From Flavobacteriia bacterium 40-80 (GTDB lineage: Bacteria; Bacteroidota; Bacteroidia; Flavobacteriales_D; Crocinitomicaceae), in the NCBI GenBank assembly GCA_001899145.1, contig MKVF01000030.1, forward strand, positions 62,001-126,000: DNA of 64,000 nt. The letters run 5' to 3'. Shown here one piece after another: positions 3-9,407 of the stretch; within the stretch, counting starts at the first letter, position 1; each line of letters starts with the position of its first letter. A program made the position numbers and the translations under genes. A model generated the notes under the pieces. The model was not told the origin of the DNA. It did not search any database and saw only the letters and a list, made by a program, of their open reading frames with translations.

Positions 3-3000
3 CATCTGGAATTTGCCGCGGCTTCCGACAATGTTCCGGTTGAAGCATTTTTCTATTTAGGGAAAGCCTGCCATCTTGATTATCAGTTCAAAAAAGCGAT
101 TACCTACTACCAGATCTTTAAGACAAAAAAAGGAAGTTCGGTAAAAAACTCCGAATTTGACGTAGACCGTGAGCTGGAAATGTGCCAGAACGGTATGAAG
201 CTGCTGAAGGATATTTCCGATCTCGTTGTAGAGGAAAAACGGGATTACAGCGCGTCTGAATTTTACCGTTTGTATGATGAAAAAAGCCTGAACGGTTCTA
301 TTCTGATCTCAAATATGGACCAGACGAAGACGGATAAGAAGAACAATCACATTCCGGTTATATTTTATCCGAATCAGCCCGATCTGATCTTCTTTTCCAG
401 CTACGGAGAGAAAGATACCGGCCAGAAGAACATTTATTTCAAGCGTCGTACAGCTTCCGGCTGGAGTTCCCCGCAACTGGTTTCAGGAGAGGTAAATACG
501 GAATATGATGAGGATTTTCCGTATTATGATGAAAAGAAAAAGATTCTTTATTTCAGCTCGAAAGGCCATAACAGTATGGGCGGATATGATATATTCTCTG
601 CACAATACGATCCAAGTACGGAATCATTTAAAAATGTCCGAAACCTTGATTTTGCAATTTCATCAACAGACGATGACCTGTTTTATGTTCCCGGTGCAGA
701 TAATACCTCTGCATGGTTTGCTTCAGCACGTGAGAGCAAGCCCGGAAAAATGACGATTTATAAGGTGGCAGTGGAACGTTACCCGGCAACGATCGCCTTC
801 ATTAAGGGAATCTTTGAATCCACCGCGTTCAAGGACAATAAACGAATTACACTTGAGCTGATCAATAAAAGAACCAACCGGAAGATCGGAACGTATTATA
901 CCGATGACAAAGGAGTTTATTCGATTCCTTTATACTTTTCCGGAGATTACGAATACCAGCTGTCGATCTATGGTGTAAATAAAGTCTTCCCGCTGAAGTT
1001 CACGATTCCCAAACTGTCTAATCTGACACAATACGGACAAAAAATCATTCATAAACGTGTGGACGGCGTTGACTATGTCGAATTGCTGTTCCTTCCCGAA
1101 AGTGAGATCAGGCCGGATGATGAGCAGCTGCTGGAATTTATCAGGGAAATGTCAACTTTGGATGTATCTGATGGAAATGTTACCCAGCAGGATGCCGCCT
1201 CAAAAACATTTTCTTCTCTGCAAAGCTCCATTCAGAAAGGGGCAGAGCTTTTGGAAGGAAAACTGGAGATGGAAACAAAAGCTAATCAGAAAATTTATAA
1301 TAATATTCAGACGATCAGCTCATTACAATATGAATTAAAAAATCTTGTAGCCAAAGAAGATGCGTCGTCTTTAACCGCTCAACAGCTGAAAGAAGCAAAG
1401 CAAAAGCTGGTACGGATTGATGCGCTGGAACAGGAGAATAAATTGCTTAAAGCGCTCACGGATTCTATGTCTTTAGTAAATGAATCGGTAAAAACCCGGT
1501 TGGAGATCGTGAAAAATCTGGACAAGAAGCTGCAAATCCTGTCAGGATCAGACGAGACAGCTCTGAGTTCTTTTAAGCAGGAAAATGAAGGAAGCTTCAG
1601 ATTGTTGGAAACAATAACGGCAGAGAAAGAAAACGATTCGTTCGGGAAGTATGAAACATTGAAAAAACAGATTAATACAAATGTTGATACGAAACGGGAT
1701 TTAGAAGCAAAATTAAAAGAAATACAGACAGAGCTGGTTTCCCTGAATAACAAGCTTGGGGAAGCAAAAGGAAAAGAAAAAATTTCTATTGAAGAGCAGA
1801 TAGCTTCCAAAACACAGCAGGCAGAGCAGATCACAGGGGAAATTCTGTACCTGGATAAGAAGATTGATGCGTTGCAGAAAGAACGAAAAACTATAGAAGA
1901 ACGTAAGGATCTGCTGATGTCGGTTTCTCAGGTAAGCAGCACAAGACAATTGAGCAATGAAGAAATAACAGAAGAGCTGAACAAGCTGGAAAGCAAGAAT
2001 TTTAAATCGATCCGGAATCTTTTGGAAGAAGCTTACGATCGCTTGCTGAATCCGGAAAAAGTAGAGCAGCTTACTTTAAACGATATTCAGAACGGAAAGC
2101 TGGAACAGGCATGGAGTCAATATCAAAACATCAAAGGAACAGATATTACAAGCGAACAGCAGGAAATAATAGCTAATTACGAAAAGGAATTACAGGCAGA
2201 AACAGAACGTATTTCTTCCAAGTCAACAAAAACGACAGAAGAGCAGCGTTATCTGAATAAGCTGAAAACAGAGCTGACGCAGGTACAGAATCTGAGGGAA
2301 GGCTTTACGGAAGCAACCCAGAATAATGAGCCGTCCGGAGAAAATTATACCACAAAGCAGTTTGTAAGTGAATTGTACCCGCAGATGAGATCTGACCTGA
2401 ATCAGAAGCTGGCGGGTGAAAGTGAAGTGGCGATTGAAGAAACATTTGATAAATTGCTCTCTAAAATAGAACAGCAGGAGAAGGTACAGCAAAAGATGGT
2501 TGCTGCTAATCCGAAGAGTAAGGAATTACACGAAGAGCAGAATCAGCTTTCGCAGCTGAAATCAGAGCTGCTGAAAGCCAAATCGGACTGGAAGCTGGCG
2601 GGATTAAAAGCACAGACAGAGCAGCAAACGGATAACATCACAAAAGACCGCTGGATTGATGAAATTGATCCGGAGTACAACCAGGAGTTAGACCGGATTA
2701 ATGAGCAGGAATATGAAAATAACTGGGATAAGGTTATTGCGTTGAAAAACAAAGAAGAGGCACTGCTCGCAAAGATTAAAAACAAGCAGAACGGAGTGAA
2801 GAGCTCTGGTTTGGAGGAGCTTTTCCAGGAAGTGGAAAGTTCCGTTAATCAATTGAAACAACGTCTTCAATACGTTATCGATAAGGAAGCGGAAAAATCA
2901 TTGAATACTTCTGTTTCTGTCCAGAAAGCTGTTAAACAGCTGGATTTTAATTTAGAAAAGTCAGTTTTCGAAGAACAGGCAGCTGATCTACAAAAAGTAA

Positions 3001-6000
3001 TTGAAGAAGAAATCGCCGGACTTAAGGATCTGAAAAGTAAAATTCTTCGGGAAAAGGCGGCTGTAAATACAATTGATAAGGCGATTGAATCACTTGAAGA
3101 AACCTTGTTATTGCTGGAATCCAAGCAAAGTGAGTACGAGCAGTTGAATAGTATTGCTGCTGTAACTTCTGAAAATAATAGTTCATCAGTTTCTCTACCT
3201 GAATCGAATACAACCACTTCTGAGGAGAATGTAGTAAATCAGGAAAATTCAACCGGAACTACTGCTGCTAATCAGTCAGAAAATACTTCGTCTGCTGCTT
3301 CACAAATTACTTCGTCCACGAATTCAGAGAATAATAACTCAGCAATTTCTCCACCTGAATCGAATACAACCACTTCTGAGGAGAATGTAGTAAATCAGGA
3401 AAATCCAACCGGAACTACTGCTGCTAATCCGTCAGAAAATACTTCGTCTGCTGCTTCACAAATTACTTCGTCCACGAATTCAGAGAATAATAGCTCATTC
3501 GTTTCCCCACCTGAATCGAAGATAACGACTTCTGAGGAGAATGTAGTAAATCAGGAAAATCCAACCGGAACTACTACTGCTAATCCGTCAGAAAATACTT
3601 CTTCTGCTGCTTCACAAATTACTTCGTCCACAAATTCAGAGAATAATAGCTCAGCAGCTTCCCCACCTGAATCGAAGACAACGACTTTTGAGGAGAATGT
3701 AGTAAATCAGGAAAATCCAACCGGAACTACTACTGCTAATCAGTCAGAAAATACTTCGTCTGCTGCTTCACAAGTTACTTCCTACACAAATTCAGAGAAT
3801 AATAGCTCAGCAGCTTCTCTACCTGAATCGAAGACAACGACTTCTGAGGAAAACGTTACTAATTCAGAAAATCCAACCGGAACTACTGCTGCTAATCAGC
3901 CAGAAAATACTTCGTCTGCTGCTTCACAAGTTACTTCCTCCACGAATTCAGAGAATAATAGCTCATCCGTTTCCCCACCTGAATCGAAGACAACGACTTC
4001 TGAGGAGAATGTAGTAAATCAGGAAAATCCAACCGGAACTACTATCAATCAGACAAAGGAAACTTCAACTGCTTCCAAAACTGTTACTCCTGCTAATTCG
4101 GAGGGACAGCTTACAATAAATCTGAATAATGAGAATACTGTTAAGAGCAAACAGCTGTTAAATGCTGTTCAAAATGATAAAGTTGCAGAGAACATTTCTG
4201 AAGATGAAAAAGTGACTACGCAGATCCAACAGATTAATATCCGGAATACGGAGATATTACCGGAAGAATATAATGCTCCGGAGCAGCTTCCAGCTGGAAA
4301 TATGTCACTTAATGAGCTGGAAAAACAATTAAATAATACAGGCTTTGAAGATGCGTCCACCCGGAAATATGTAACGGAAGCGGTGGAATATATGAAATCG
4401 CTGAACACGTCGAACAGCAATTTAGTTAAGAAAATAACAGAAAAAGAGATTGCTTTCATTCAGAATGAGCTCACATTACAGCAGCAAAAGTCACAATTGC
4501 CCGTAAGTGTTGAAGGAAGCATATTTTCTTCAGATCAGCTGAATCAACGGTTAATGCTGCTGGAAAATCAGCTGCAACAAACAATCAACGACAAACGGCT
4601 TGTGGAAGAGCTGCAACTGCTTTCAGGGAAGAAAGAGCGTGAAGAACAGCAAAAAGTAGTACAGCTGTTAAATGAAAAAACAGCCTATCTGAAAAAGGAA
4701 ATAACAGCTGCAGAAGAACAGTTGCAGGAAGACAGGCTGTCAGATCAGCGATTACAGGAATTGTTGGAAGAATACGAAGAGCTGGAAGCGATTCTTGTGA
4801 AAATGAAAAAGGCGAATGCAGAGCAGGTGGTCTTATATCAGCTGCTTCAGAAAGAATTTAAAAATTTGCAGCAGCTTCAGGAGAATGAGCAGTATCTCAA
4901 AAAGCAACTGCAGGCAGCAGTGTCAGAAAATAACGAAAGTAAAATAAATGATCTTACCAACGCTTTAACTAAGAATAAAGCCTTAAGGAAACAGCTGGAA
5001 GTGCTGATCGGATCTAATCTTCAGCTATTGAAAAACGAAATCAATAACCCGACGCTGACGTATCCGTCCTCTTCTGAAAACACGGCCGTGATTCAGGAAA
5101 AAGTTGCTGAAATGGCTTTTACATTGCAGCCACAGCAAACTGTTACAGCTGATCAGATTAAAACGATTCTGGAGTCAGAAAATTATCCGAAAGGTTTGTT
5201 TTACCGTATTCAGGTTGGGGCGTTTGCCAAGCCAATTAATGAAAATGTTTATAAGGATTTCAGCCCGGTTACAATGGAGAACCTGAACAAAGGGCTGATC
5301 AAATACATGGCCGGTTATTTTACGGAAGAAAACACAGCGGCAACTGCCCGCGATCAGATCCGTAAGCTGGGATTCACGGATGCTTTTATCGTTGCTTATT
5401 GTGATGGCAAAAGAATTCCGGTCTTTGAGGCCAGAAGATTACTGAAAGAAGGGCTTTGCCTTCCGGTTTCAACGCAGGAATTACTGTTTCATATCGATCC
5501 GACAAAGCAGGAGCTGCTTACGCATCTGAATTCTTCTTCTCCTGCAGGAAATGCTGTTACAGACAATCCTCCTGTTAAGATAGAGCAGAAAACAGCATTA
5601 CAGATGAAGTCCGGTTATGCAGTGGATGTACAAAGTGTCGAAGGTTTGTATTTTACTGTTCAGGTAGGAGTTTTTAACCGCTATGTGGAAGAAGAATATC
5701 TGAAAGGTCTGAAACCTGTAAATACCGATGAGGTAGCTCCAAAGGTTATCCGTTTCTCAGTTGGTATTTTTGATGATCTGAACAAAGCTAAGGAACAACG
5801 GTTAGAGGCAGTGCAGAAAGGTTTTACAGATGCTTTTATTGTTGCTTACTACAAAGGGAAGCGGATTACCGTTCAGGAAGCAAATCTTTTATTACAGCAG
5901 AATAAAGCCGAATTAGTCCGGATTTCTGAAATGAAGGAGCAAGAGCAACCGATCAGTGAAACATCGCCCATTCAGGAAGTAAACTATGTCCAGGTATTGA

Positions 6001-6272
6001 AAGAAGAAATTCAAAATTCAACAGTTTTACGCGGACAGGAAATACCTGTACTGCCGGAGAAAGAAGGCAAGGCCAGCATGGAAATACTTCTGACCTCAGA
6101 AGAGCTGGAGTTACCCTTTTACTGGTGGGTTATTGAACATTTTGAGAATTATTTCCTTCAGAAAACCGCGAATGGAATAATAATACACGCGTTTTATGAT
6201 GAAGAGGAGAAAGAGACATTAATTTCTGATCTGGAATCTCTCGGATTTGAGAATGTTCAGATTAAAAAATGA
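3..6272 (+). CDS. giant TPR/PD40/coiled-coil protein with SPOR-like C-terminus (5' end outside window)
   Basis: The frame is open to the left edge, so at least 2089 residues are present and the N-terminus is missing. Residue numbers count from base 3. Residues 1-60 look like a TPR repeat (AFFYLGKACHLDYQFKKAI). About 115-190 carry PD40/WD40-like blades (LIFFSSYGEKDTG, YFSSKGHNSMGGYDIF). About 261-325 resemble a carboxypeptidase-regulatory or CNA-B beta domain. Long coiled coil covers about 380-1050 and 1420-1690, on either side of a Ser/Thr/Asn-rich tandem repeat (1056-1353). Two SPOR-like modules lie near 1729-1813 (YRIQVGAFAKP, GFTDAFIVAY) and 1880-1960 (FTVQVGVFNRY). The N-terminal order TPR-PD40-beta domain matches the protein at 33913-36003, so the two look paralogous. 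A cell-envelope structural role, possibly linked to T9SS or gliding, is inferred. Confidence 0.93.
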   Translation, partial: HLEFAAASDNVPVEAFFYLGKACHLDYQFKKAITYYQIFKTKKGSSVKNSEFDVDRELEMCQNGMKLLKDISDLVVEEKRDYSASEFYRLYDEKSLNGSILISNMDQTKTDKKNNHIPVIFYPNQPDLIFFSSYGEKDTGQKNIYFKRRTASGWSSPQLVSGEVNTEYDEDFPYYDEKKKILYFSSKGHNSMGGYDIFSAQYDPSTESFKNVRNLDFAISSTDDDLFYVPGADNTSAWFASARESKPGKMTIYKVAVERYPATIAFIKGIFESTAFKDNKRITLELINKRTNRKIGTYYTDDKGVYSIPLYFSGDYEYQLSIYGVNKVFPLKFTIPKLSNLTQYGQKIIHKRVDGVDYVELLFLPESEIRPDDEQLLEFIREMSTLDVSDGNVTQQDAASKTFSSLQSSIQKGAELLEGKLEMETKANQKIYNNIQTISSLQYELKNLVAKEDASSLTAQQLKEAKQKLVRIDALEQENKLLKALTDSMSLVNESVKTRLEIVKNLDKKLQILSGSDETALSSFKQENEGSFRLLETITAEKENDSFGKYETLKKQINTNVDTKRDLEAKLKEIQTELVSLNNKLGEAKGKEKISIEEQIASKTQQAEQITGEILYLDKKIDALQKERKTIEERKDLLMSVSQVSSTRQLSNEEITEELNKLESKNFKSIRNLLEEAYDRLLNPEKVEQLTLNDIQNGKLEQAWSQYQNIKGTDITSEQQEIIANYEKELQAETERISSKSTKTTEEQRYLNKLKTELTQVQNLREGFTEATQNNEPSGENYTTKQFVSELYPQMRSDLNQKLAGESEVAIEETFDKLLSKIEQQEKVQQKMVAANPKSKELHEEQNQLSQLKSELLKAKSDWKLAGLKAQTEQQTDNITKDRWIDEIDPEYNQELDRINEQEYENNWDKVIALKNKEEALLAKIKNKQNGVKSSGLEELFQEVESSVNQLKQRLQYVIDKEAEKSLNTSVSVQKAVKQLDFNLEKSVFEEQAADLQKVIEEEIAGLKDLKSKILREKAAVNTIDKAIESLEETLLLLESKQSEYEQLNSIAAVTSENNSSSVSLPESNTTTSEENVVNQENSTGTTAANQSENTSSAASQITSSTNSENNNSAISPPESNTTTSEENVVNQENPTGTTAANPSENTSSAASQITSSTNSENNSSFVSPPESKITTSEENVVNQENPTGTTTANPSENTSSAASQITSSTNSENNSSAASPPESKTTTFEENVVNQENPTGTTTANQSENTSSAASQVTSYTNSENNSSAASLPESKTTTSEENVTNSENPTGTTAANQPENTSSAASQVTSSTNSENNSSSVSPPESKTTTSEENVVNQENPTGTTINQTKETSTASKTVTPANSEGQLTINLNNENTVKSKQLLNAVQNDKVAENISEDEKVTTQIQQINIRNTEILPEEYNAPEQLPAGNMSLNELEKQLNNTGFEDASTRKYVTEAVEYMKSLNTSNSNLVKKITEKEIAFIQNELTLQQQKSQLPVSVEGSIFSSDQLNQRLMLLENQLQQTINDKRLVEELQLLSGKKEREEQQKVVQLLNEKTAYLKKEITAAEEQLQEDRLSDQRLQELLEEYEELEAILVKMKKANAEQVVLYQLLQKEFKNLQQLQENEQYLKKQLQAAVSENNESKINDLTNALTKNKALRKQLEVLIGSNLQLLKNEINNPTLTYPSSSENTAVIQEKVAEMAFTLQPQQTVTADQIKTILESENYPKGLFYRIQVGAFAKPINENVYKDFSPVTMENLNKGLIKYMAGYFTEENTAATARDQIRKLGFTDAFIVAYCDGKRIPVFEARRLLKEGLCLPVSTQELLFHIDPTKQELLTHLNSSSPAGNAVTDNPPVKIEQKTALQMKSGYAVDVQSVEGLYFTVQVGVFNRYVEEEYLKGLKPVNTDEVAPKVIRFSVGIFDDLNKAKEQRLEAVQKGFTDAFIVAYYKGKRITVQEANLLLQQNKAELVRISEMKEQEQPISETSPIQEVNYVQVLKEEIQNSTVLRGQEIPVLPEKEGKASMEILLTSEELELPFYWWVIEHFENYFLQKTANGIIIHAFYDEEEKETLISDLESLGFENVQIKK
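3169..4060 (+). repeat. six in-frame 156-bp tandem repeats (52-aa Ser/Thr/Asn-rich unit)
   Basis: Units start near 3169, 3325, 3481, 3637, 3793 and 3949. Each encodes SENNSS..., then PES, then TTTSEENV, then NPTGTT, then SENTSSAASQ. The sixth unit decays into a divergent tail (NQTKETSTASKTV). Spacing is exactly 156 bp and differences between copies are scattered substitutions. This predicts an extended low-complexity linker between two coiled coils. Such arrays can change length by slippage or unequal recombination without breaking the frame. Confidence 0.9.
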
Positions 6273-6325: not shown

Positions 6326-6595
6326 ATGCAGACACTTGAAGCATTTGACGGGCAATTATTAGAAAAAATCGTTGAGCAGCGGGATTTAATCGTTTACAAT
6401 GATGATTTCAATACCTTTGATTTTGTCATTGAATCACTGATAAAAGTATGTAAACATGAAGTGGAACAGGCTACACAATGTACGTATCTGATCCACTATA
6501 AAGGGAAATGCCAGGTAAAAAGAGGCGAGTACAAAGACCTGGAGCTTATGTGCACCGCTTTGCTGGATCGTGGAATCACCGCGGAAATCGAATAA
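6326..6595 (+). CDS. clpS: ATP-dependent Clp protease adaptor ClpS
   Basis: ClpS delivers N-degron substrates to ClpAP/ClpCP in the cytoplasm. The 89-residue product has the family signature: LIVYNDDFNTFDFVIESL near residues 22-39 (the YNDD segment that contacts the substrate N-terminus), E.ATQ in the second helix, and IHYKGKC carrying the conserved His-x-x-Gly. Length is typical of the core domain with a short N-terminal tail. It is monocistronic, set between the giant envelope gene and the tRNA, with a candidate promoter at 6297. No Clp ATPase gene is in the window. Confidence 0.9.
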   Translation: MQTLEAFDGQLLEKIVEQRDLIVYNDDFNTFDFVIESLIKVCKHEVEQATQCTYLIHYKGKCQVKRGEYKDLELMCTALLDRGITAEIE

Positions 6596-6609: not shown

Positions 6610-6639
6610 TTGCAGAAGCAAAAAAACTACTTATATTTG
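6610..6639 (+). promoter_or_regulatory. promoter for tRNA-Arg (TTG-N19-TATATTTG)
   Basis: TTG at 6610-6612 and TATATTTG at 6632-6639 are separated by 19 bp, matching the Bacteroidota housekeeping promoter consensus. The predicted start site is about 5 bp before the tRNA. Confidence 0.8.
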
Positions 6640-6650
6640 CACTCGCAAAA

Positions 6651-6724
6651 GGCCTCGTAGCTCAACTGTATAGAGCATCAGATTACGGCTCTGAAGGTTT
6701 CAGGTTAGAATCCTGACGAGGTCA
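6651..6724 (+). tRNA. tRNA-Arg (anticodon ACG), no encoded CCA
   Basis: All four arms fold. Acceptor 6651-6657 pairs with 6717-6723 (one G-T). D stem is 6660-6663/6673-6676. Anticodon stem is 6678-6682/6690-6694 with loop TTACGGC, anticodon ACG at 6685-6687. T stem is 6700-6704/6712-6716. The discriminator is A6724 and CCA is not encoded. Oddity: position 19 (6669) is T, not the near-universal G, and position 56 (6707) is A, not C. The T loop therefore reads TTAGAAT, and the tertiary pair 19-56 is a compensated T-A. A34 would need TadA editing to inosine to read CGU, CGC and CGA. Confidence 0.95.
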
Positions 6725-6732
6725 CCGAGTAA

Positions 6733-6760
6733 AGCCAATCCGAATAGGGTTGGCTTTTTT
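6733..6760 (+). terminator. intrinsic terminator after tRNA-Arg
   Basis: A 9-bp stem (AGCCAATCC/GGGTTGGCT, one G-T pair) with a 5-base loop is followed by a run of T. Confidence 0.85.
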
Positions 6761-7583: not shown

Positions 7584-9407
7584 ATGAAAAAAATAGTTAC
7601 ATTATTATTTCTGACTTTCAGTATATTCAGTGCTTATGCACAATCACCTGAAAAAATGAGTTATCAGGCAGTGGTGCGAAATTCAAACAATTCCCTGCTG
7701 ATTTCACAGAGTGTAGGCATCAGAATCAGTATCTTGCAAGGAAGTTCTGCAGGGACGGAGGTATATGTTGAAACGCATACCACAACAACGAATGCTAATG
7801 GTTTAGTAAGTCTTGAAATTGGAAATGGAACAGTTGTTTCCGGTACATTTGATGCCATAGATTGGAGCAACGGGCCATTTTTCATAAAAACGGAAACAGA
7901 TCCAGCCGGCGGAACCAATTACTCCATCATCGGTACCAGTCAATTGCTAAGCGTCCCTTATGCCTTGTATGCGAAGACCTCTGGAAGTTCTGCACCTGGT
8001 CCGCAAGGTATTCAGGGTGTCGCTGGAATGGATGGTGCAGATGGTGAAAATGGACAAAATTCTTTGATTAAATCAACAATCGAAGCTGCTGGCATCAACT
8101 GTGAAACTGGCGGGATTAAGTTAGAGTACGGTATAGATGCGAACAATGACGGCACTTTGGATGTGTCCGAAATCAATGCTTCTTTGACAAAATATATTTG
8201 CAATGGCGCTCAAGGAGCACAAGGTCCTGCAGGTACAACTGGTGCTACAGGAGAAACGGGAGTACAAGGACCAGCAGGAACGCAAGGTATCCAGGGTAAT
8301 CCAGGGGCAAACGGCCAGAATTCACTTGTAAAGACAACAACTGAAGCTGCAGGTGCAAATTGCACAACTGGCGGAATTAAGTTAGAATACGGTTTGGATG
8401 CGAATAATAACGGTACTTTGGATGCATCTGAAATCAATGCTTCTTTGACAAAATATATTTGCAACGGTACTCAAGGAATCCAGGGAACTACAGGAGCTAC
8501 CGGAACAGCTGGAACGAACGGGCAAAATTCTCTATCCAAAACAACGACTGAAGCTGCAGGTGCAAACTGCTCAACAGGTGGTGTGAAAGTGGAATACGGA
8601 CTGGATGCGAACAACAACGGTACTTTGGATGCAGTAGAAGTAAATGCATTACTTACCAGATATATTTGTAATGGCGCTCAAGGAACGCAAGGTATCCAGG
8701 GTAATCCAGGAACAAACGGCCAGAATTCTCTATCCAAAACAACAACTGAAGCAGCTGGTGCAAACTGCGCAACAGGTGGTGTGAAAGTGGAATACGGACT
8801 GGATGCAAACAACAATGGTATTTTGGATGCGTCTGAAATCAACGCGGCGTTAACAAGATATGTCTGCAACGGTGCGCAAGGAGCTACAGGAGCAACTGGT
8901 GCCAATGGTAAAAACACGATCGTTAAAACAACGACTGAATCTGCCGGATCAAACTGTCCGGGTGGTGGTGTGAAACTGGAATATGGACTGGATGCCAACA
9001 GCAATGGAACTTTGGAAACTGCTGAAGTAGACGCATCGCTTACCAAATATGTGTGCAATGGTGACCCGGGACAACATCCTGTATACCTTAAAACCGTAAT
9101 GGGAACGCCATTCACAATCAATGTGGGCAATGGTGCAATTGCAATGGTGAGATTTTACACACAGTGTGCTGCCAGTACAGCTGGAGGTCTGATCTACATC
9201 GAGAACAATGGAAACATTACCGTAATGTCAACAGCTGGTTCGCAAGGAGCTAACCTGACAGCCTCAGGAAATGTACTTTCTTTGAACACTGGTTGCATTG
9301 ATCCATGGACATTTACATTTACGGTTTCCGGAGGCATTGCCACAGTCACGCAAGGCGGCGGTGGCGGATTTCACCAGGACGGCAAATGGCAGATTCTGGG
9401 AAATTAA
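7584..9407 (+). CDS. secreted collagen-like surface protein with repeated [12 protein letters not shown] modules
   Basis: The product has 607 residues with a signal peptide (1-20, ending SAYAQ). The N-terminal domain (about 21-133, [15 protein letters not shown] to [10 protein letters not shown]) is a conserved Bacteroidota exported module. Then come five alternations of collagen-type Gly-X-Y tracts (for example [16 protein letters not shown]) and a 50-residue module with two Cys and an acidic calcium-loop-like stretch ([13 protein letters not shown]), DUF7151-like. The C-terminal 110 residues are beta-rich and end [11 protein letters not shown] without a recognisable T9SS sorting domain, so export beyond the periplasm is uncertain. 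It sits between a T9SS cargo gene and a two-component pair. An adhesin or fibre-like role is inferred. Confidence 0.88.
8061..9063 (+). repeat. five copies of Cys/acidic-loop module separated by collagen triplets
   Basis: Module starts are near 8061, 8323, 8530, 8728 and 8914. Spacing varies because the Gly-X-Y spacers differ in length. Copies share long identical stretches, for example the codons for CNGAQG and [12 protein letters not shown]. Confidence 0.8.

Follow-up and report, generated by a model that had tools for sequence, protein, structure and literature searches.

The 64-kb stretch of DNA analysed here (64,000 nucleotides of contig MKVF01000030.1 from Flavobacteriia bacterium 40-80, a member of the Crocinitomicaceae; hereafter, the window) contains a single tRNA, which ARAGORN identified as tRNA-Arg(acg) from position 6651 of the forward strand, with the anticodon at gene position 35 (6685). 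In this gene, the tertiary pair between D-loop position 19 and T-loop position 56 is T19-A56 rather than G19-C56. The G19-C56 pair is commonly presented as a near-universal feature of elongator tRNAs and as a platform for the ribosome, RNase P, RNase Z and the L1 stalk. The features of the gene, in window coordinates, are as follows.

6651..6724, + strand: tRNA-Arg(ACG), positions 1-73 (ARAGORN; RF00005; cloverleaf energy about -25 kcal/mol)
6665, + strand: A15, forming an A15-T48 Levitt pair with T48 at 6699 (sequence read)
6669, + strand: T, not G, at D-loop position 19 (sequence read; orthologue comparison)
6670, + strand: A20, the major arginine identity base, kept (sequence read; role according to PMC9976931)
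6685..6687, + strand: anticodon ACG (ARAGORN)
6707, + strand: A, not C, at T-loop position 56, the partner of T19 (sequence read; family covariation)

The D-loop bases are A14 (6664), A15 (6665), C16, T17, G18 (6668), T19 (6669), A20 (6670), T20a (6671) and A21 (6672), those of the T-loop are T54 (6705), T55 (6706), A56 (6707), G57 (6708) and A58 (6709), and the discriminator is A73 (6724). A first-pass annotation of this DNA had placed T19 at 6669 and A56 at 6707, and both coordinates are correct. Of these bases, G18, T54, T55, G57 and A58 are normal and only 19 and 56 are swapped; neither G19 nor C56 is present (T6669, A6707), and the two bases form a Watson-Crick pair. The Levitt pair is A15-T48, versus G15-C48 in the tRNA-Arg(TCT) of the same genome. 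The gene lacks the 3' CCA, with CCG coming next after 6724, and its ACG anticodon is presumably read as ICG, through inosine formation. The Rfam model RF00005 gave 61.9 bits for 6651-6724 over its whole length (1-71/71), corresponding to a full-length tRNA fold, against a gathering score of 29 bits. The gene thus passes the cut-off with ease, ranking 29th among the 39 RF00005 matches of the genome, and ARAGORN calls it too; the low score with automatic models that the first-pass annotation had thought possible is not seen with either program.

The arginine identity set (A20, C35, G36 or U36, A/G73) is complete: A20 (6670), C35 (6686), G36 (6687) and A73 (6724), with G36 as the identity base because the codons are CGN. 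Arginyl-tRNA synthetase (ArgRS) is unusual in reading A20, one of the arginine identity positions, in the D-loop (PMC9976931).

Elbow states in the genome and in the Crocinitomicaceae

The assembly (3.52 Mb, 99.7% complete) yielded 39 tRNA matches, corresponding to 35 distinct sequences, 33 of which have G19-C56. The remaining two, tRNA-Arg(ACG) and tRNA-Arg(TCG), are T19-A56 and each is present as a single copy, whereas tRNA-Arg(TCT), together with 32 other distinct tRNAs, retains G19-C56. The swap first seen in a single gene is thus present but not lone: it is shared by both isoacceptors for CGN codons. A second ACG tRNA was sought in this 99.7% complete genome and none was found, so no intact copy exists that would make the gene at 6651 dispensable. 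Two other tRNA-like loci were recorded: a second, divergent tRNA-Cys(GCA) (L037, G000:C10:152858-152928; 50.3 bits) accompanies the normal copy in the same genome, and a decayed tRNA-like stretch (L010:1415-1490, GGCTCCGTAGCTCAGCCAAATAGAGC...) lies immediately upstream of a tRNA-Arg(TCT).

Only one ArgRS reading frame was found in the genome. The existence of two ArgRS enzymes for the two classes of tRNA is therefore ruled out, and one enzyme must charge the ACG, TCG and TCT tRNA-Arg. The ArgRS of the family has about 635 amino acids (aa), and the catalytic HxGH region is followed by an insert of about 40 aa (L224/L225; G000, G013) that is not found in relatives such as Weeksella (590 aa).

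We scanned 240 Crocinitomicaceae genomes with a pattern in which positions 19 and 56 were left free, and tabulated 178 CGN-type tRNA-Arg genes from 140 genomes, taken from the matches listed, with a few added from an order-level search. The assignment of these genomes to the Crocinitomicaceae agrees with matches whose coordinates coincide with those of named loci (G086, Fluviicola sp.; G070, Lishizhenia; G150, Crocinitomicaceae bacterium). These genes were A19-T56 (121), T19-A56 (56) and A19-C56 (1), and none was G19-C56. Both non-G-C states occurred in both isoacceptors: the ACG genes were mostly A-T (108 A-T, 25 T-A and the single A-C), and the TCG genes mostly T-A (31 T-A, 13 A-T). The tRNA-Arg(TCT) of the family was G19-C56 in all the matches listed.

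The covariation between the two positions is strict. A Watson-Crick pair was present in 45 of the 46 distinct CGN tRNA-Arg sequences of the family, whereas permuting position 56 left on average 25.1 sequences paired, and never more than 37, in 100,000 shuffles (relatedness ignored); the pairing is therefore not due to chance. The 15-48 pair was A-T or G-C in all 178 tabulated genes. Furthermore, five pairs of distinct sequences differ solely at 19 and 56 over the 52 bases compared, one of these being the window's gene and the genes of genera g15 and g22, and both ACG states occur within each of the genera g2, g10, g14, g18 and g22. The tRNA-Arg genes of this family are also found in metagenome records that bear the names Kuenenia, Chitinophaga pinensis or Chryseobacterium gleum (L153, L154, L156, L115); the coordinates of L153/L154 match the family genomes G050/G112, and the species labels look wrong.

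These data bear on the possibility that the window's gene is decaying or has no role in translation, or that the swap results from assembly errors. Decay does occur next to such genes: in a genome of the Clostridia, the intact T19-A56 copy of tRNA-Arg(TCG) is adjoined by a degenerate tandem copy in which 19 and 56 are mismatched as T19-C56 (G585:C8:50462-50513), which shows decay, in contrast to compensation. However, the window's gene is neither broken in its stems nor a redundant isoacceptor copy, the same state is found in independent assemblies and covariation is strict, making this explanation scarcely conceivable.

A19-U56 and U19-A56 interconvert at one orthologous locus

The immediate neighbourhood of the gene comprises the following features.

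6326..6595, + strand: clpS, the conserved upstream neighbour, used as the marker of the orthologous locus (Pfam PF02617, E=2e-17; 27 other loci alike)
6610..6639, + strand: promoter-like site TTG-N19-TATATTTG, just upstream of the tRNA (pattern match, putative function)
6731..6757, + strand: intrinsic-terminator-like hairpin followed by a T-run, just downstream of the tRNA

The TTG-N19-TATATTTG motif, which we take to be the promoter type of Bacteroidota, has eight such sites in the 64 kb, counting both strands. Further out, the window contains a reading frame of 2030 aa (180-6272) in which long near-repeats of type SENTSSAASQITSSTNSENNSS occur, and another encoding a protein of 607 aa (7584-9407) that has repeated units as well as collagen-like GxxG stretches.

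The clpS gene precedes the ACG gene at 28 loci, including that of the window, and both A19-T56 and T19-A56 are represented among them. On a clpS tree, the 19-56 state requires six changes (5-95% range of 6-8 in bootstrap trees), at least three of which are forced by well-supported branches; the tree was built from 213 bases and has many open forks, so the count of changes is rough. The occurrence of both states behind clpS and the approximately six changes on the tree indicate that a single orthologous locus switches back and forth between A-U and U-A. In addition, L051 (A-T) and L083 (T-A) have flank stretches in common on both sides. The first-pass annotation had proposed a functional compensated variant rather than an error, a view supported by the single ACG copy, the lack of G19-C56 among the tabulated genes of the family and the paired state of the clpS-linked orthologues. 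The swap is real, in all likelihood functional, and wider than a single window could reveal.

We therefore consider it likely that the gene encodes an ordinary single-copy elongator tRNA-Arg of the inosine type, the elbow of which must be Watson-Crick at 19-56 but need not be G-C; its promoter-like site and terminator fit this reading. In the CGN tRNA-Arg of the family, the constraint on this pair would have been loosened, such that any Watson-Crick pair is accepted where G-C was once required. Compensated double changes would then let the pair drift from A-U to U-A and back, while the rest of the genome's tRNAs keep G-C. The nearest precursor of U19-A56 within the family was probably A19-U56 rather than G19-C56. 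The tRNA is predicted to be expressed and to fold into a normal L; the single ArgRS would recognise A20 and the anticodon and charge it, and it would behave as a working elongator on the ribosome. A U-A pair retains the face and geometry of G-C with one hydrogen bond fewer. As the elbow contacts would depend on this face more than on which bases form the pair, the flat U-A pair may still stack on RNase P, the L1 stalk, L5 and the A-site finger. An effect of the swap on contacts with the ribosome, EF-Tu or the processing machinery, as suggested by the first-pass annotation, is conceivable.

Several observations weigh against this reading. The absence of G19-C56 from 178 family genes is more than a simple relaxation needs, given that A-U can reach G-C by two transitions via G-U; AT-biased mutation may explain it, but selection may too. 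The patterns also demanded A20, an arginine anticodon and the D-stem, and in some of the genomes they therefore missed divergent genes. Finally, L083 (T-A) and L084 (A-T) have upstream flanks that are 97% identical, but the downstream flanks are different and two more stem pairs, both compensated, distinguish the tRNAs; gene replacement is possible in this case.

The last of these points raises the question of whether whole tRNA genes were exchanged, by gene conversion or horizontal replacement, and spread the states in this way, instead of by compensated mutation in place. The L083/L084 case speaks for this, as does the presence of tRNA-Arg genes in viral contigs (L251-L337), both with A19-T56 (119 stretches) and with T19-A56 (7 stretches). 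Nevertheless, several genera hold sequences differing solely at 19 and 56 over the 52 bases compared, L051 and L083 share stretches of both flanks despite their different states, and the clpS neighbour is kept. Replacement therefore appears to be an unlikely general source of the states, and mutation in place, under a constraint for pairing, is the reading that we retain.

Elbow swaps outside the family

The change is compensated, as originally proposed, in that pairing is kept, but it is not a one-off event: it recurs in both CGN isoacceptors and in other lineages. At the level of the order, G19-C56 was found in several families and A19-T56 in others. Within the class, families f15, f17 (ACG), f19 and f22 had A19-T56 in most or all of the genes listed, and families f14, f18, f20 and f21 had G19-C56 among the genes listed; the other classes of the phylum in our sample had G19-C56 among the matches listed. 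These class and phylum states were read by eye from match lists. In GTDB species genomes, T19-A56 in a CGN tRNA-Arg context was found in at least 117 stretches, many from Bacteroidota.

The swap also recurs in other phyla. In a clade of Clostridia, T19-A56 was found in tRNA-Arg(TCG) only, the ACG and NCT tRNAs found there being G19-C56. In G595, a metagenome-assembled genome of a termite-gut alphaproteobacterium, the CCG and CCT (AGG) tRNA-Arg are T19-A56, and relatives have A19-T56 in the CCG tRNA. With G19-C56 all around each of these groups, independent origins are the most plausible reading. Confinement of the swap to Bacteroidota is ruled out by the Clostridia and alphaproteobacterial cases, and confinement to CGN tRNAs by the CCT (AGG) tRNA of G595 and by tRNA-Gly and tRNA-Ala with A19-T56. 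The latter were identified with a control pattern for tRNAs with non-G19, non-C56 and non-A20 (thus excluding tRNA-Arg), limited to those with a GCTCA...AGAG D-stem. This pattern matched in 6 of 237 Bacteroidia genomes, always as A19-T56: tRNA-Gly(TCC) in families f22 (G575, G663, G720, G746) and f65 (G649), and tRNA-Ala(TGC) in one genome (G380). Compensated elbow swaps are thus possible but rare in other tRNAs, and frequent in tRNA-Arg.

It could be argued that the affected tRNAs read rare codons and consequently tolerate a weaker elbow. The cases in other phyla are consistent with this idea, as the affected tRNAs read minor codons in both: CGG and CGA account for 0.9% and 10.8% of the arginine codons in the Clostridia genome G585, and CGG and AGG for about 11% each in G595. 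However, among the 18,192 codons of the window, CGN makes up 60% of those for arginine, which rules out this explanation for the window genome, and the share is 77% in a Weeksella sample, yet both CGN tRNAs are non-G-C there. Relaxation through rare codons is therefore very unlikely.

A more serious alternative, which we entertain only tentatively, is that selection favours a non-G-C elbow in CGN tRNA-Arg. A weaker 19-56 pair, or one with a different face, would tune the accommodation or translocation of these isoacceptors, or would mark them for an enzyme as a label or an anti-label, and G19-C56 would be actively kept out of them but retained elsewhere. The family has no G-C pair in 178 genes, even though transitions would suffice, while A-U/U-A exchanges, which require two transversions, are recurrent; in three phyla, it is mainly arginine tRNAs that show the state, whereas double non-G-C pairs occur in non-A20 tRNAs of the tested shape in very few Bacteroidia genomes (6/237); and both CGN isoacceptors have the swap that the TCT tRNA lacks. 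By contrast, G19-C56 is kept in sister families, or occurs there alongside A-U within the same isoacceptor, the same ArgRS must charge the G19-C56 tRNA-Arg(TCT), and tRNA-Gly and tRNA-Ala are swapped too. Moreover, the 46 distinct sequences represent few independent lineages, in which AT-biased mutation is an adequate alternative to selection against G-C. It is similarly doubtful, though conceivable, that there is an isoacceptor-specific elbow code, with the CGN tRNA-Arg of several lineages selected to avoid G19-C56 in favour of a weak pair of either orientation; if so, the elbow would carry information separating CGN tRNA-Arg from all other tRNAs for a step of translation or processing. As for the prominence of arginine, a change at position 19, next to the A20 that ArgRS reads, may be tolerated by tRNA-Arg or even be of use to it, but tRNA-Arg(TCT) also has A20 and yet keeps G-C.

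Significance and comparison with known systems

We found no report of U19-A56, A19-U56 or clade-specific tRNA-Arg features for ordinary bacterial tRNAs in the literature searched (open-licence papers only), and the letters of the T-loop, sought as text, led only to papers on other subjects. Models fixing G19 and C56 misdescribe the arginine tRNAs of many Bacteroidia. The natural set of near-identical bacterial tRNAs in which G-C, A-U and U-A are exchanged constitutes a ready-made experiment on the elbow contacts, addressing the question of whether these contacts read base identity, pair strength or merely a flat pair. The established elbow contacts consist for the most part of stacking on the face of this pair: the S-domain of RNase P (PMC9433436) and the L1 stalk (PMC5309774) stack on the 19-56 pair, and L5 and the A-site finger meet the tRNA elbow (PMC4810234).

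The window's tRNA shares with the canonical bacterial tRNA-Arg(ICG) its cloverleaf, ACG anticodon, A20, A73, G18-U55, stems and loop lengths, and differs from it in having U19-A56 where the latter has G19-C56. In animal mitochondrial tRNAs, G19-C56 is likewise not conserved and the D/T-loop contacts are relaxed (PMC7609411), but these tRNAs often lose the D-T contact, whereas the window's tRNA keeps it by a compensated change. The U19:A56 elbow pair is common to the window's tRNA and the archaeal tRNA-Pyl of the Methanosarcina type, in which it is natural and functional; replacement by G19:C56 also works in tRNA-Pyl and raised suppression in mammalian cells (PMC5758916), suggesting that U-A is somewhat weaker. 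However, tRNA-Pyl, which belongs to another domain and another amino acid, has a tiny five-base D-loop, an elongated anticodon stem and a CUA anticodon (PMC7609411), whereas the window's tRNA, with its nine-base D-loop, five-pair anticodon stem and ACG anticodon, is otherwise canonical.
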